Source: Cumulibacter soli
GTDB lineage: Bacteria > Actinomycetota > Actinomycetes > Mycobacteriales > Antricoccaceae
Assembly: GCF_004382795.1 (NCBI RefSeq)
Contig: NZ_SMSG01000005.1
Span: 248,001-312,000, forward strand
Direction: 5' to 3'
Length of the DNA: 64,000 nt
Part shown: positions 2,855 through 57,382 of the stretch, in pieces
How positions within the stretch are numbered: the first letter of the stretch is position 1
How the letters are laid out: the number at the start of each line of letters is the position of its first letter
The notes under the pieces: generated by a model
The model's input: the letters and a program-made list of their open reading frames with translations, nothing else
What the model was told of the DNA's origin: nothing
The model's database searches: none
Position numbers and translations under genes: made by a program

Positions 2855-3661
2855 ATGGATCTGGGTCTCCGCGATACCGTCGCGCTGATAGTCGGGGGCG
2901 CCTCGGGCATCGGGTGGGCAAGCGCCCAAGCCTTTGCCGCGGAAGGCGCGAAGGTCGTGATCGCCGACCTCAACGGAGAGACTGCTGCCGACCGCGCCGC
3001 ATCGCTACCACAGGCATGGTCACGGCGCGTCGACGTGACGAGCGAGGACGACATCCAGGCGCTGTTCGCGGCAGTTATCGAACGCGAAGGCCGGCTTGAT
3101 TCGGTGGTCAGCTGCGCCGGCATAGGACACCTAGGTGCGATTCGGGACATCGAGCTCGCTGACTGGCAGAACGTCATCGACATCTGTCTCACCGGGTCGT
3201 TCCTGGTGATGAAGCACGCGGCGCGGGTCATGACAGGCGGCGGATCGATCGTGAACATCGCCTCGCTGAACGCGCGCCAGACAGCCGCGGGGTACGGCGT
3301 ATACAGCGCTGCTAAGCGTGGGTTGACTGCGCTTGCTGAGGTCGCCGCTCTCGAGTTAGCCGCGGACGGGGTTCGGGTCAATACGATCTCTCCCGGGCTG
3401 ATTGATACCCCGCTGACGAACACGCTGCGTGCGATCCCCGGCGTGCAGGAGGAGTTCACCGATAACACGCCGCTTAGGCGTAACGGGCGCCCCGAGGATA
3501 TCGCCGCAACCGCGCTCTTCTTGTGCTCGTCAATGGCCGACTGGACGACCGGCGACACGCTGGATGTCAACGGTGGCGGTCATCTACAGCGCTATCCGAA
3601 CGTGATGGCAGCCGCCGCCGCGCTGACACCCGAAGAGTTCGAAAAGTTGCAGTCGCTGTGA
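2855..3661 (+). CDS. Short-chain dehydrogenase/reductase
   Basis: 268 residues from ATG 2855. The promoter at 2786-2814 rules out the longest reading frame, and starting at MDLGLRDTVAL places the GGASGIG nucleotide loop at residues 14-20 as is normal for the family; ATG 2837 is the alternative. Classical SDR features are present: acidic residue after beta-2 (VVIADLNG, NAD preference), NxxG-like CAGIGH, catalytic Y150 and K154 (YSAAK), and the SPGLIDTPL segment after beta-6. It oxidises or reduces an alcohol/ketone of unknown identity. The stop overlaps the start of the next gene by 4 nt (GTGA), so the two are translationally coupled. Confidence 0.88.
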   Translation: MDLGLRDTVALIVGGASGIGWASAQAFAAEGAKVVIADLNGETAADRAASLPQAWSRRVDVTSEDDIQALFAAVIEREGRLDSVVSCAGIGHLGAIRDIELADWQNVIDICLTGSFLVMKHAARVMTGGGSIVNIASLNARQTAAGYGVYSAAKRGLTALAEVAALELAADGVRVNTISPGLIDTPLTNTLRAIPGVQEEFTDNTPLRRNGRPEDIAATALFLCSSMADWTTGDTLDVNGGGHLQRYPNVMAAAAALTPEEFEKLQSL

Positions 3662-4719
3662 AGGCGCTGCAGTACTTCGGAGTCAAAGACCTGCGCCTCC
3701 AAGAGGTCGCCGAGCCAGAGGTTCGTCCCGGCTGGATCAAGCTGGCGGTCACGTACTGCGGGATCTGTGGCTCGGATCTGCATCAGTACGTCGGCGGCAC
3801 GGCTCGGCCGATAGATGAACCCCATCCCCACACGGGGATGAGCGGTGCGGTCACGATGGGGCATGAGAATCTTGGGACCATCACCGAACTCGGTGAGGGG
3901 GTCACCGGTTTCGAGGTCGGACAGCGCATCGTCGTCGAGGCTTTGCGGGGTTGCGGACAGTGCCATTCGTGCCGCGAAGGCATGCGGAATGTCTGCCATG
4001 TGCTGAGCATCCTGGGGGCGGCGCTGCACGGTGGAATGGCGCCGTACATGGTGGTCCCCGAAGACCTCTGTCACGTCGTCCCCAACGGCATCCCCGACGA
4101 GGTCGCGGCGCTGACCGAACCGCTGGCGGTCGGCATTCACGCTGTCGCCCAAGGAAACGTCCGTTCGGGTGACGACGTCGTGGTGTTCGGCGCCGGGCCG
4201 ATCGGCCTGATGACGATCCTGGCGCTCAAGGTCGCCGGCGTACGACGACTCATCGTCGTTGAGCCGAACGCGCTGCGTCGCTCGTCTGCCGAGCGTGTCG
4301 GTGCAGACGTTGTCATCGACCCCACGGACCTCGATGTGGTGGTGCACATTCTCGAGCGAACTGATGGCCGCGGCGCGGATGTGTCCTTCGACGCTGCCGG
4401 TGCCGATGCCTCGTTTGCCGCCGCGTACTCGGTTATCCGCCGTGGCGGAACTTTCGTCAGCGTGTCTGCCTGGGAGCGGCCGACCGAATTCAACCCGATG
4501 GTTTTGCTCGGTACCGAAGCGACGTTTACCGGCGCACTTGGCTACGGTCCACGGGACTTCGGGTTCGCACTGCAGTTGCTGGCCGACGGCACGCTCGGCG
4601 ACTTGTCCTGGATGGTCTCCTCGGTCGTCGCGCTGGATGACGCTGTCACTGGCGGATTCGAGGAGTTGTTGGCCAACCGGGATGCACACATCAAAATTTT
4701 GGTCCGCCCGCAGGGCTGA
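3658..4719 (+). CDS. Zinc-dependent alcohol dehydrogenase (MDR superfamily)
   Basis: 353 residues from GTG 3658, overlapping the SDR stop. The catalytic zinc motif is CGICGSDLHQY with GHENLG. Four cysteines in GCGQCHSCREGMRNVC match the structural zinc lobe. The Rossmann motif is VVVFGAGPIG and an acidic residue follows beta-2 (IVVEPN), favouring NAD. The layout resembles butanediol/sorbitol/threonine-type dehydrogenases, which oxidise secondary alcohols or diols. With the SDR just upstream, two successive alcohol oxidations in one pathway are plausible. The substrate cannot be deduced. Confidence 0.88.
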   Translation: MKALQYFGVKDLRLQEVAEPEVRPGWIKLAVTYCGICGSDLHQYVGGTARPIDEPHPHTGMSGAVTMGHENLGTITELGEGVTGFEVGQRIVVEALRGCGQCHSCREGMRNVCHVLSILGAALHGGMAPYMVVPEDLCHVVPNGIPDEVAALTEPLAVGIHAVAQGNVRSGDDVVVFGAGPIGLMTILALKVAGVRRLIVVEPNALRRSSAERVGADVVIDPTDLDVVVHILERTDGRGADVSFDAAGADASFAAAYSVIRRGGTFVSVSAWERPTEFNPMVLLGTEATFTGALGYGPRDFGFALQLLADGTLGDLSWMVSSVVALDDAVTGGFEELLANRDAHIKILVRPQG

Positions 4720-53250: not shown

Positions 53251-53362
53251 CCGTCCATCTCAAACCACGGCCCACCGCGCGGCAATACCGGGGGTGGGTT
53301 CTGCTCGTTTAGGGTCGGCATACAGCGGTTTGGGATTGATCGCCGCGTGTCTGGAGGCAGCC

Positions 53363-54814
53363 ATGGCGGACACCTCGCGCGGGGTCGTCGTACCGCTCGA
53401 AAACGGTAAGCGCAGTAGTACGTCGTTCGGTCGGGCGGTAGTGAGCGCGGCGCTGGCACACGCCGACCCGATCGGGTCGGCGGCCGCGGCGCGAGAGACG
53501 GACTGGCGCCGCAAGTACCCCGAACATTTCCGCCGACTACTCGAGGCCGGGCTGAATGGCGAAGAGGCCGCCGTGGACATCGCCCGGCGCGGGCTGGCCG
53601 AGGTGCACGCTCGGATGCGATTTGCCGAGGACGGTACTGATCACGCGCTGTCGCACGCGTTCGGCGCGGAGCCGACCCACACCACGGAAGTAGTGACCGG
53701 GACGGCCGAGCCCGAGCACGAACTAACGATCCCGTTCCGCGGCGAGCGCTTAGCCGCTGAGAACCTGCGGCGGCAACTGGACGACTGGGTTGCCCGCGGG
53801 TCGATGGAGCCGAGCGCCGCGGACGCCGTGCGTGCGGTGCAGCAGAACCCGGACTGGCTGCGGCTTCCCGGACGCACGCTGGCGGTGTTGGGTGCGTCGT
53901 CCGAGATGGGACCACTGCGTTCGTTGCTGCGATGGGGCGCGAGCGTGGCCGCCGTCGACCTTCCCCGTCCCGAGCTGTGGCGCGAGACCTTCTCCTGGGC
54001 GCGGCAGTCGGCCGGCACGCTGCAGGTTCCGGTTCGCGACGGCGACCTGCCGGCGGACCAGCGCGCGGGCGCCGACTTGCTGCACGACGTGGGTGCGGTC
54101 GGCGGGTGGCTTGCTTCGCTACCGGGCCCGTTGGTTCTGGGTAATTATGTGTACGCCGACGGCGTGGTGAACCTGCGACTGTCTGCGGCCGTCGACGCGC
54201 TCACGTCCTGGCTCGCGTCGCAACGTCCGGACGATGTGGAACTGGCGTTCCTCGCGACGCCGACCGATGTGTTCGGCGTACCGCGCGAAGTTGTCGAGTT
54301 CAGCGAGCAGGCTTACCGCGCCGGAGGGATATCCAAGGTGATTCGGCCCGCGGCGCGCCTTGTCAGCGGCGGGCGGCTATTGCGCCGGAACTATGCCCCC
54401 GGTTCTGCGCCTGGGCTCAACGACAGCATGGTGCTGCAGCAGGGCCCGAACTACTTGCTCGCGAAGCGGATCCAACGGTGGCGGGCCACTGTGGCGCGCC
54501 GCGACGGACTGCCGGTGTCGATGCTCGTCGCGCCACCGACCCGCACCCGATCGGTACTGAAGAATCGGGCGCTCGCTGCCGCGTACGCCGGTGCGCATCG
54601 ATTCGGCGTGGAGGCATTCGCGCCGTCCACCAGCAATACGTTGATGGCGGCGCTGCTGGTGCACGATCTGAGCACCGGCCCGCGGGCGTTGGATGTGCCG
54701 TGGCGCGAGGAGGCGGCGAAAGCTGTGCACGGCGGGCTGTGGCGCGGCCCGTACGACCCGCGCTCAGCTCTCGGCCTGGCCGTAGTCCTAGGCATCGGTC
54801 GCGCCAAGTCCTAG
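53363..54814 (+). CDS. Uncharacterised Rossmann-like protein
   Basis: 483 residues from ATG 53363, with CTGGAGG 6 nt upstream; a longer start at 53294 is not supported. A glycine-rich segment TLAVLGASSEMGPLRSLLRWG (about 180-200) followed by AAVDLP suggests a nucleotide-binding fold. LVLGNYVYADGVVNL and VELAFLATPTDVFGVPREVVEFS resemble conserved core pieces of an unnamed family. The C-terminal ~100 residues are basic and helical. No catalytic residues are recognised; function unknown. Confidence 0.75.
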   Translation: MADTSRGVVVPLENGKRSSTSFGRAVVSAALAHADPIGSAAAARETDWRRKYPEHFRRLLEAGLNGEEAAVDIARRGLAEVHARMRFAEDGTDHALSHAFGAEPTHTTEVVTGTAEPEHELTIPFRGERLAAENLRRQLDDWVARGSMEPSAADAVRAVQQNPDWLRLPGRTLAVLGASSEMGPLRSLLRWGASVAAVDLPRPELWRETFSWARQSAGTLQVPVRDGDLPADQRAGADLLHDVGAVGGWLASLPGPLVLGNYVYADGVVNLRLSAAVDALTSWLASQRPDDVELAFLATPTDVFGVPREVVEFSEQAYRAGGISKVIRPAARLVSGGRLLRRNYAPGSAPGLNDSMVLQQGPNYLLAKRIQRWRATVARRDGLPVSMLVAPPTRTRSVLKNRALAAAYAGAHRFGVEAFAPSTSNTLMAALLVHDLSTGPRALDVPWREEAAKAVHGGLWRGPYDPRSALGLAVVLGIGRAKS

Positions 54815-54884
54815 TTGCCCCGCGGATGACAGCCCGCCCCGCCAAGGGCAGGGACCGGGTTTCCCTCCGCGTCGGGGAGGCCGT

Positions 54885-54955
54885 CCAAAAACGCAGCGAA
54901 AACAATGGGGCATCGCGCTCTGCGCGATGCCTACCCGATTTCGCTGCGTGTTTGG
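54885..54955. repeat. Nested stem-loop repeat, copy A
   Basis: Outer arms 54885-54901 and 54939-54955 pair at 16 of 17 positions (core CGCAGCGAAA/TTTCGCTGCG). Inside, GGCATCGCGC (54909-54918) pairs perfectly with 54922-54931 around TCT. A related element lies at 56004-56072 in the same orientation, on the other side of the AbiEi/DUF559-type gene. Confidence 0.75.
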
Positions 54956-54980
54956 CGCTATCGGGCGTGGTGACGGCGGT

Positions 54981-55868
54981 CTACGCCGCGAGTCGGTTCC
55001 GCCTCCGCCTGTGCCGGTGCTGAAAATAGTGCTCGCGGCGACGGATAAGGGTGAGCAGCGAGGTCATAACAGCCTCGCCCTGATCAAACACCTGGCGGTA
55101 CGTGAGTCGAACACATAGGTAACCCAAAGTGTGGAGCGTGAGGTCGCGATGCCGGTCGGTTTCGTAGGCTAGCCGGTTGGTGTGGTGCTCCACGCTGTCG
55201 AGTTCGAGCACCAGACGTTGGCCGACGACCAGATCAACGCGTCCCAAGCCTCGAATCCGGACCTGCGGTCGTACGTTGACATTGATCCGAGCCAAGCGAT
55301 AGCGAGCAACGGATTCAGTCCCCGACTCGGCGCGCTCGTCTACAAAATTCAAGAGTCTTCGGACTCGTATCGATCGACCCTCGAGCGCGTCCCGCACGTC
55401 CCCGAGCACGCACTTGCGCTGGTAGAGCATCGAATCGATGATTGCCACGAGCTCTTCGTCGCTGACGCATCCCGATGCCGCTGACAAGGCAACCATCAAC
55501 GGATCGACAGCGCGGGCTGGTCGCAGGTCGCCCAAGTGTTGGCCACATTGCAGTGCGTCTGATTTGGTCGTCGACCTGCCGCCCCGATACTGGGCGTGGT
55601 CGGTCAGACGCATGTGAACTCGCGTGTGCTCTGGGGTCCAGACGCCGTGCAGTTTCAGAGCCGATATGCAACTAAGAACGCCGCCGGCTCGCACGGCCGC
55701 TGCCACATCCGCGTTGTGGTCGGGCGTTGCGTACCAGCCATGCCGGAGACGGTGCAGAGTGCCCGCGTTCGCCGCCTTGCGAATGTCGTAGCGCGACATT
55801 CCGGACTGACAGAGAAGGCCAGCACGCAAGACCCCGTAACTGTTTCTGATCGCGAAATCTAGATCCAT
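54981..55868 (-). CDS. AbiEi-like / DUF559 domain protein
   Basis: 295 residues from ATG 55868. Residues about 10-50 match the AbiEi antitoxin-type winged helix (GLLCQSGMSRYDIRKAANAG, LHRLRHGWYAT). The C-terminal part is a DUF559/Vsr-like nuclease fold: RIRGLGRVDLVVGQRLVLELDS, then YETDRHRDLTLHTLGYLCVRLTYRQVF, with D/E residues of a PD-(D/E)XK-type site (VDLV, LELD). Single genes of this kind, with no toxin partner, occur in several copies per actinobacterial genome. It is flanked by two related structured repeats. A CAGATT element 6 nt upstream suggests leaderless transcription. Confidence 0.83.
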   Translation of the reverse strand: MDLDFAIRNSYGVLRAGLLCQSGMSRYDIRKAANAGTLHRLRHGWYATPDHNADVAAAVRAGGVLSCISALKLHGVWTPEHTRVHMRLTDHAQYRGGRSTTKSDALQCGQHLGDLRPARAVDPLMVALSAASGCVSDEELVAIIDSMLYQRKCVLGDVRDALEGRSIRVRRLLNFVDERAESGTESVARYRLARINVNVRPQVRIRGLGRVDLVVGQRLVLELDSVEHHTNRLAYETDRHRDLTLHTLGYLCVRLTYRQVFDQGEAVMTSLLTLIRRREHYFQHRHRRRRNRLAA

Positions 55869-55874
55869 GGACCC

Positions 55875-55880
55875 AATCTG
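55875..55880 (-). promoter_or_regulatory. -10-like element of leaderless promoter
   Basis: CAGATT on the minus strand, 6 nt before ATG 55868. Confidence 0.35.
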
Positions 55881-56003
55881 GCCGGAGAACGGCGATTCGA
55901 CCCAGTGCAGTTGAAATCTGTGGATTACCTGTGGACAAGGAACACGGGAGACGCGTCATGGTGCTATGTGTCGCTCGTCGGGCTAGCAGACCGAGGATTG
56001 CTG

Positions 56004-56073
56004 CAAAAAGCGCAGCGAAATCGGAGGGGCATCGTTCTCTAGGCGATGCATAGGCGATTTTGCTGCGTTATTG
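56004..56073. repeat. Nested stem-loop repeat, copy B
   Basis: Same layout as 54885-54955: CGCAGCGAAA at 56011-56020, inner GCATCG/CGATGC (56029-56034 and 56044-56049), closing TTTTGCTGCG at 56058-56067. The arms pair with one G-U and a few mismatches. The spacing between elements matches copy A almost base for base. Confidence 0.7.
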
Positions 56074-56173
56074 GGGAGGGGATGCGGAACCGCCCCGGCG
56101 AACTTCGACAGAGGTGCCTCACAGCCTCGGCGAGTTGCGCGCTGCCCAGATGCGGGCGGGATGTGGCGTGGCT

Positions 56174-56252
56174 TTAGTGAGGTGCGGGAGGGGACGTCGC
56201 GGCGTTAGCGAGGTGCGGATGGGAGGTCGGACGGGTCTTCAGCGAGTCGCAG
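56174..56252. repeat. Degenerate direct repeats, about 31-bp period
   Basis: TTAGTGAGGTGCGG (56174-56187) and TTAGCGAGGTGCGG (56205-56218) are 31 bp apart, followed by the weaker TTCAGCGAGTCGC at 56238. Confidence 0.45.
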
Positions 56253-56293
56253 AGGCCGTCGCGTTTCAGCAAATGGCGTGCCGACGCGCTGGT

Positions 56294-57382
56294 TCAGCGA
56301 GCTGAGGAGGTTTCGGCGGAGTCATCTGGTTCGGTCAGGTCCTCGCGGCCGAGGATCTTCGACAGCAACGGCGCCATTAGCAGCACGAGTAGCAGTCGTG
56401 CCAGTTGCACCGCGAAAACGTACGTCGCATCGGCGTGTGAGTCGGCGGCAATCGCGAGTACGGCGGGCAGTCCGCCTGGCGTAGTCGCGAGGTACGCGGT
56501 CAATGCGCTGACTCCGGTTGTCGCGGCCAACACCCAGCCCAACAGCGCACTGCCGAGGACGACGACGGCAATCAGCACGACGGCGGCCGGGAGCAACTTG
56601 GCAATTGACTTCAGACTTGCCCTGGTGAAGCGGAGTCCGACCTGCAATCCCAGCAGGATGAAGCAGGCCGCGACGATCGGCCCGGGCACTTCGACCGGGC
56701 CGAACCAGCCACTGATCGCCAACGCCGCTGACACGGCCATTGGGCCGAGCAAGAAGAACGTGGAGATCGGGATTGCCCAACCGATCAGCGCGCCCACCCC
56801 GACGCTGAGCACGGTGAACCCGAGACTGCTCCACAACTCGGTGTCCACGTCGGACGGTGCGGCGGTGTGTTCGCCAAAGACAAGCAGGACGACGGCGGGA
56901 AGAGTGACGAGTATCAGCAGGACGCGCACGTACTGCACGACAGCGACCACCCGGTCATCACCGCCGAGTTCACGCGCGATCGAGGTCAGGGTGCCGGCGC
57001 CGCCGGCGATCATCGACAGGACGCCGGTCAGCCGCCCGATCTTGCCGAGCCGTGCGAGCAGGAATCCGCCCGCGATGCTGAGCGCGAGCGTCGCGGCGGT
57101 AACGACGACGGCAACGAACCAGCCGGACGCCAACCGTTGCAGTGCTGGAAGTGTGACGGTTGCGCCGATCATCGTCCCGATCACGGCCTGCGACACTCGG
57201 GTAGTACGGCGACCAACTTGCGGTGGATTGTCCAGCGTGAGCGCGACGACACAGCCCGCGACCAGCCCGCCGAACAACGTGGGTGACGGGACATCGAGCA
57301 GGTTCAATCCGAACCCGACGAGGACGCCGACGACGATGGCGATCAGCCACGTCGCGAGCGTTCGTCGTCGGTCCCGGGTCAC
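56294..57382 (-). CDS. AbrB-family (AimB/putative ammonia monooxygenase) membrane protein
   Basis: 362 residues from GTG 57382. Ten or so transmembrane segments are visible, arranged as two homologous halves, each starting with a GVLxGFGLNLLxVPSPTLFGG-like segment; GGAGTLTSIARELGGDD and TPGGLPAVLAIAADSHAD are the paired family motifs. The family was named for early mis-annotation as ammonia monooxygenase and includes regulators of aidB; transport of small metabolites is suspected. No substrate is known. Confidence 0.85.
   Translation of the reverse strand: MTRDRRRTLATWLIAIVVGVLVGFGLNLLDVPSPTLFGGLVAGCVVALTLDNPPQVGRRTTRVSQAVIGTMIGATVTLPALQRLASGWFVAVVVTAATLALSIAGGFLLARLGKIGRLTGVLSMIAGGAGTLTSIARELGGDDRVVAVVQYVRVLLILVTLPAVVLLVFGEHTAAPSDVDTELWSSLGFTVLSVGVGALIGWAIPISTFFLLGPMAVSAALAISGWFGPVEVPGPIVAACFILLGLQVGLRFTRASLKSIAKLLPAAVVLIAVVVLGSALLGWVLAATTGVSALTAYLATTPGGLPAVLAIAADSHADATYVFAVQLARLLLVLLMAPLLSKILGREDLTEPDDSAETSSAR

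Follow-up and report, generated by a model that had tools for sequence, protein, structure and literature searches.

AbiEi/DUF559-type nuclease genes of Actinobacteria and the dispersed palindromes which flank them: a probable REP/RAYT-like partnership

The nuclease gene and its two flanking palindromes

The window of this study is a stretch of 64 kb of DNA (G000:C5:248001-312000), which contains a nuclease gene placed between two similar palindromes, W1 and W2. The gene and the two palindromes are referred to as the unit; the features of the locus are the following.

54981-55868, minus strand: nuclease gene, intact, 295 aa, encoding an AbiEi-like winged helix joined to a Vsr/EDxHD-type PD-(D/E)XK nuclease
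54883-54957, unstranded: palindrome W1, on the 3' side of the nuclease gene at a distance of 25 nt, and 68 nt beyond the stop of the convergent gene 53294-54814
56002-56076, unstranded, oriented as W1: palindrome W2, ~130 nt upstream of the nuclease start codon
53294-54814, plus strand: left neighbour outside the unit, conserved, 506 aa, without a match in the Pfam scan; locus marker in G001 and G002
56294-57382, minus strand: right neighbour outside the unit, AbrB-family membrane protein (PF05145); locus marker in G001 and G002

Homologues of the nuclease are labelled in public records as 'AbiEi family antitoxin domain-containing'. The 295-aa protein exceeds the Pfam cut-off of DUF559 (PF04480, 24.9 bits, cut-off 20.6) and matches MTES_1575 and AbiEi_4 under the curated cut-offs of these families (AbiEi_4 with an E value of 9e-4); AbiEi_4 is matched by 20 of 35 nuclease homologues. 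In the AlphaFold model, which is confident (pLDDT 91), residues 1-177 align to AbiEi (6y8q; Z 6.1 for the N-terminus), and the fold of the nuclease domain (residues ~180-280) matches the catalytic domain of I-Bth0305I (Z 9.6), NGO0050 (9.1) and Vsr (8.0). The catalytic-type residues D177, R179, E181, E185, D212 and E222 are invariant among the 35 homologues. Because the acidic residues typical of this nuclease type are among them, the enzyme is probably active. The PF04480 score, the invariant D212 and E222 and the fold similarity to I-Bth0305I and Vsr place the protein among the DUF559/Vsr-like PD-(D/E)XK nucleases.

W1 and W2 are imperfect palindromes of ~75 nt each, flanking A and T tracts included, with 78% identity. 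A first-pass annotation of the sequence had described two matching elements around an AbiEi/DUF559-type gene, and they were recovered as a direct repeat of 69 nt (54887-54955 and 56006-56074, 78% identity, 1119 nt apart), besides which no other long direct repeat is present in 54600-56400. The order of the parts given there, namely CGCAGCGAAA, an inner GCATCG hairpin and a closing GCTGCG arm in a common orientation, was correct on re-reading. Both copies fold far more stably than expected by chance, with DNA folding energies of -31.4 and -20.1 kcal/mol (z -8.7 and -5.4), as stable as which none of 200 shuffled sequences was; RNA parameters gave concordant results. Rfam gave no credible match. 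The repeat was also said to be absent from the rest of the window, and within the 64 kb it is indeed restricted to W1 and W2.

Copies of the palindrome in the genome and the locus in congeners

Outside the window the picture is different. The genome contains copies of the palindrome at ~36 places, W1 and W2 included, and the ~34 others are found at unrelated genes, so that the palindrome is not private to the nuclease gene. The copy closest to W1 is L009 (87% identity). W1 and W2 are not mutual nearest relatives, which argues against a private pair of cassette ends. Three pairs of copies at different sites are 94-99% identical, one pair 193 bp apart, which indicates that element-sized copies were duplicated recently.

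In a gapless alignment of 38 copies 81% of the expected base pairs are kept, compared to 37-45% with slid partners, and two-sided changes are seen at 19 of 29 pairs; the stems thus covary. Hardly any variation is seen in the outer arm (ACGCA) and in the inner CATCG, and the palindromes of the window's genome have the geometry of terminal inverted repeats. A second subfamily (L065-L072, as well as L073 and L074 in the congener G001) shares ACGCAG/CTGCGT arms and a CATCG-like core, and has other middle stems and weaker A/T tracts.

The first-pass annotation had proposed to follow the repeat into related genomes. Copies could be identified in G001, which was the sole match of the covariance model R1 among 60 relatives, and an exact-pattern search of 84,980 species gave no match beyond the window's genome, which may itself have been left out of that set. 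The window palindrome family is thus lineage-specific, and the wider evidence rests on the homologous genes, not on the window repeat.

The gene itself shows the variation among close relatives which the first-pass annotation had asked about. In G001 the unit is missing and the two neighbouring genes are separated by 11 bp; the nuclease gene is absent from that genome, which retains just two palindrome copies, both distant. G002 contains a nuclease homologue at the same locus, which is split by a frameshift and adjoins a quite different palindrome family, itself repeated in G002. A degenerate candidate for a second palindrome of the G002 type on the 5' side of that gene is not significant, since equally high scores were obtained for 7 of 115 other pieces, and G002 was counted as one-sided bracketing only. 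With an empty site in one congener and a broken gene beside another palindrome in the other, the gene is variable among congeners, and so are the palindromes next to it. The mobilisable cassette with private ends that had been suggested is thus not borne out, given the ~34 copies at unrelated genes, the more distant relation of W1 to W2 and the other palindrome family in G002. At the G002 locus (L075, 7263-10628) the broken nuclease gene is separated from the AbrB gene by a further long ORF (1121 aa), which suggests a possible hot spot of insertion.

Homologues and their palindromes across the class

A class-wide search revealed homologues in 171 of 394 genomes, and 42 named homologue loci came from the scan of 84,980 species genomes. 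Two homologues in G004 and one in G010 each lie between matching palindromes, whose sequence differs by locus. Flanking sequence suitable for testing was available for 131 to 133 loci. At 42 of 131 homologue loci both flanks contain a palindrome with a common arm of at least 9 nt, compared to 2 of 256 other genes there (Fisher p 6e-20) and to none of 2152 slid windows. Since slid windows are often located within coding sequence, the gene-by-gene comparison was made as a further control. A cruder test, repeat plus fold, gave 52 of 131 homologue loci and 11 of 1203 controls. About two thirds of the homologue loci do not pass the strict two-sided test, in some cases due to divergence and in others perhaps to a true lack of bracketing.

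The palindromes flanking homologues are 50-115 nt long and are in direct orientation in 28 cases and in inverted orientation in 12. Dispersal is general: in each of ten genomes tested, 12-79 palindrome matches were found. In another genus (G051) the outer arms are invariant, and the inner stem varies among the copies and stays paired. Several palindromes whose outer arms are unrelated share an internal motif, GGCGTGTCG / CGACACGCC (L131, L151, L154, L182, L212 and others).

Homologues also occur in four plasmid records and one phage record of the respective collections. The phage record, MT839994.1 (4.9 kb, unannotated), contains a nuclease homologue at 3365-4099 (E 3e-17). The 'plasmid' records of Tsukamurella tyrosinosolvens NCTC13231 (L238-L240) carry the housekeeping genes pheA and hemB and resemble pieces of a chromosome; they did not pass the shared-arm test. 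Three contigs of the Acidobacteriaceae MAG BOG_194 (L108, L113, L115) encode homologues of the actinobacterial type, by contamination or transfer, and the palindromes of L108 have the inner GCATCGC/GCGATGC in common with those of the window.

The arms of the palindromes co-evolve with the nuclease. Arm similarity correlates with nuclease identity (Mantel r 0.53, reached in 0 of 2000 permutations; the weak shared-arm cases L143 and L156 were left out of the phylogenetic tests). An arm is common to 47% of the nuclease pairs with at least 60% identity and to ~1% or fewer of those below 50%. Paralogues inside one genome have different arms in most cases, and in a Mycobacterium-like genus the distribution of the arms GAGCAGAC, GAGCGCTC, GAGCGTGCG and GAGCGACCG mostly coincides with the clades of the nuclease tree. 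At one locus common to two species, with nucleases 75% identical, the palindromes match better within the locus (0.43 and 0.68) than across species (0.12 and 0.25), which indicates that both flanking palindromes change together. The copy number follows the same trend: palindromes of the GAGCAGACRCA type have a median copy number of 10.5 in the 12 genomes that possess the matching nuclease clade and of 1 in the 15 that lack it (p 0.0015, a value which ignores phylogeny), with G371 as an exception, where 27 copies occur without a detected matching nuclease. Judged from these sequence comparisons, the palindromes belong to the protein and not to the genome.

Interpretation and comparison with known systems

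We consider it probable that the unit in the window exemplifies a REP/RAYT-like partnership, widespread in Actinobacteria, of a single-gene nuclease with dispersed palindromes of its own. A RAYT-like tie of the nuclease to its own repeats had been offered in the first-pass annotation beside the cassette, and this part of it is supported by the bracketing, by the clade-specific arms and by the dispersal in ten of ten genomes.

A joint movement of gene and palindromes in the past is well supported. Nucleases that are 73-76% identical share their arms and lie between unrelated flanking genes (L155/L154 and L178/L160). One of the units in G004 lies between phnE-like and phnG-like genes, as read from ORF translations, and interrupts a phn-like operon. 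In relatives of G319 the site of one unit and those of palindrome pairs are empty. A base-exact empty site or a target duplication was not found among the relatives compared, which are too diverged for exact junctions.

The movement could be due to another transposase, with MITE-like palindromes and a nuclease gene that is a passenger or is favoured beside them. The inverted palindrome pairs of G319, 160-290 bp long with varied bodies and in one case enclosing an unrelated gene (L254), would fit such an origin, and so would the terminal-inverted-repeat geometry of the palindromes in the window's genome. Like MITEs the palindromes are short, non-autonomous repeats with varied bodies; they differ in that neither a parent insertion sequence nor a target duplication was identified. 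However, an external transposase common to all would not predict that the arms follow the relationships of the nucleases from genus to genus, nor that they differ among the paralogues of one genome. Moreover, a search for the Y1/RAYT family, to which this comparison is limited, gave no match to PF01797 in the 295-aa protein nor in G000, G001, G002 and G004, while five control genomes were positive. We therefore regard the action of another transposase as unlikely. In G319 (L246-L252) a second, unrelated palindrome (GAAACTACGGTTGTTGACG... or GAGTTCTACACC...) is nested in the bodies of the paired palindromes.

It is considerably less likely that the palindromes are bidirectional terminators or mRNA-end hairpins which spread as a sequence family and bracket the nuclease gene incidentally. 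The main subfamily of the window's genome carries A and T tracts, and one terminator-like prediction overlaps W1. The 30 clearly intergenic copies are mostly found at the 3' ends of genes, 13 in convergent, 15 in co-directional and 2 in divergent regions (8 further places overlap a low-confidence ORF call of a simple gene finder). Copies at the ends of unrelated genes are what the first-pass annotation had expected of ordinary terminators, and they are literally what was found; a REP/RAYT-like system predicts the same. Terminators would however predict neither matching left and right arms at the nuclease gene but not at other genes, nor the co-variation of arm and protein, and the GAGCAGAC families have no T tract at the end. 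Random placement gives copies within 250 nt on both sides of the gene with a probability of ~5e-6, a figure that ignores intergenic clustering.

An equally low probability is assigned to the palindromes being operators, with the AbiEi module as a repressor of its own gene and of a regulon. AbiEi antitoxins do repress their own promoters via paired inverted repeats (PMC7319586, PMC3985639), and W2 lies upstream of the nuclease gene. Against this, the copies avoid divergent, i.e. promoter, regions and prefer 3' ends, and both the downstream W1 and the conserved nuclease residues would be left unexplained. Mere coincidence, for which ~0.38 pairs of the ~36 dispersed copies are expected within 1.2 kb of each other in the window's genome, is contradicted by a bracketing that recurs with different palindromes in many lineages (42/131 against 2/256, and 0/2152 in slid windows), and its probability is negligible.

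The favoured reading, a nuclease-palindrome partnership, resembles the arrangement described for REP/RAYT, where a nuclease gene lies between two extragenic palindromes that are dispersed over the genome, also as inverted doublets, and co-vary with the protein by complementary changes (PMC2817692, PMC3733652, PMC3116915). In the window system, too, a single nuclease gene lies between two palindromes, copies of which are dispersed singly and in pairs, and palindrome and protein co-evolve. It differs in its enzyme, which is a winged helix joined to a PD-(D/E)XK nuclease instead of an HUH Y1 (IS200/IS605-type) transposase, and in its flanks, which are direct at the window gene and more often direct than inverted among homologues, whereas RAYT flanks are described as inverted. 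A GTAG or CGTC tag at the palindrome foot, a feature of REPs (PMC3733652), is absent from the 22 copies of the window's genome which were read directly. REP/RAYT proper was therefore rejected: with the defining Y1 enzyme absent from the protein and from four genomes, the unit is not assigned to this class in spite of its architecture (PMC2817692).

With the AbiE type IV toxin-antitoxin systems (S. agalactiae AbiEi, M. tuberculosis Rv2827c) the protein shares the N-terminal AbiEi-like winged helix, and AbiEi proteins bind inverted repeats. In contrast to these, its C-terminus is a nuclease, and the Pfam scan of four neighbouring proteins revealed no toxin gene, the adjacent AbiEii (DUF1814) included. 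The nuclease domain has the fold of Vsr and of the homing endonuclease I-Bth0305I, which is of the EDxHD type; however, the window gene does not lie inside an intron or host gene, has another recognition module and is flanked by palindromes.

How a partnership of this kind might work can be suggested from its parts. The AbiEi-type winged helix would recognise the arms of the palindrome. AbiEi proteins are known to bind paired 23-bp inverted repeats (PMC7319586). Since this footprint is similar in size to the palindromes, their recognition by the AbiEi module is plausible by analogy. The Vsr/EDxHD-type nuclease would then nick or cut the palindrome, as duplex, cruciform or single-stranded hairpin. 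To our knowledge a PD-(D/E)XK nuclease alone does not join strands, so that new insertions would need a helper. Host repair or recombination could copy the unit of gene plus palindromes, or lone palindromes, into new intergenic places, and the products would be complete units, palindrome pairs with other cargo, and single palindromes. We put forward only tentatively that this represents a new class of intragenomic mobile DNA, in which an EDxHD/Vsr-type PD-(D/E)XK nuclease with an AbiEi module would propagate itself together with its cognate palindromes through targeted cuts that the host repairs, with no recombinase or HUH transposase involved, and would have radiated into many arm specificities across the Actinobacteria.

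Among open-licence PMC papers none was found that links DUF559/AbiEi proteins to palindromes, and a nuclease-palindrome partnership which resembles REP/RAYT and employs an unrelated enzyme looks undescribed so far. The family is common in Actinobacteria, where its members are annotated as orphan AbiEi antitoxins or, without a known function, as DUF559 proteins. If it proves genuine, the partnership would assign a role to these genes and account for a large number of the palindromes dispersed in mycobacteria and related bacteria. It would also be a second, independently evolved arrangement of the REP/RAYT type, by which the mutual maintenance of a host-encoded nuclease and a palindrome population would become testable with a different enzyme. 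The pairs of arms and proteins are ready-made specificity sets for binding experiments.
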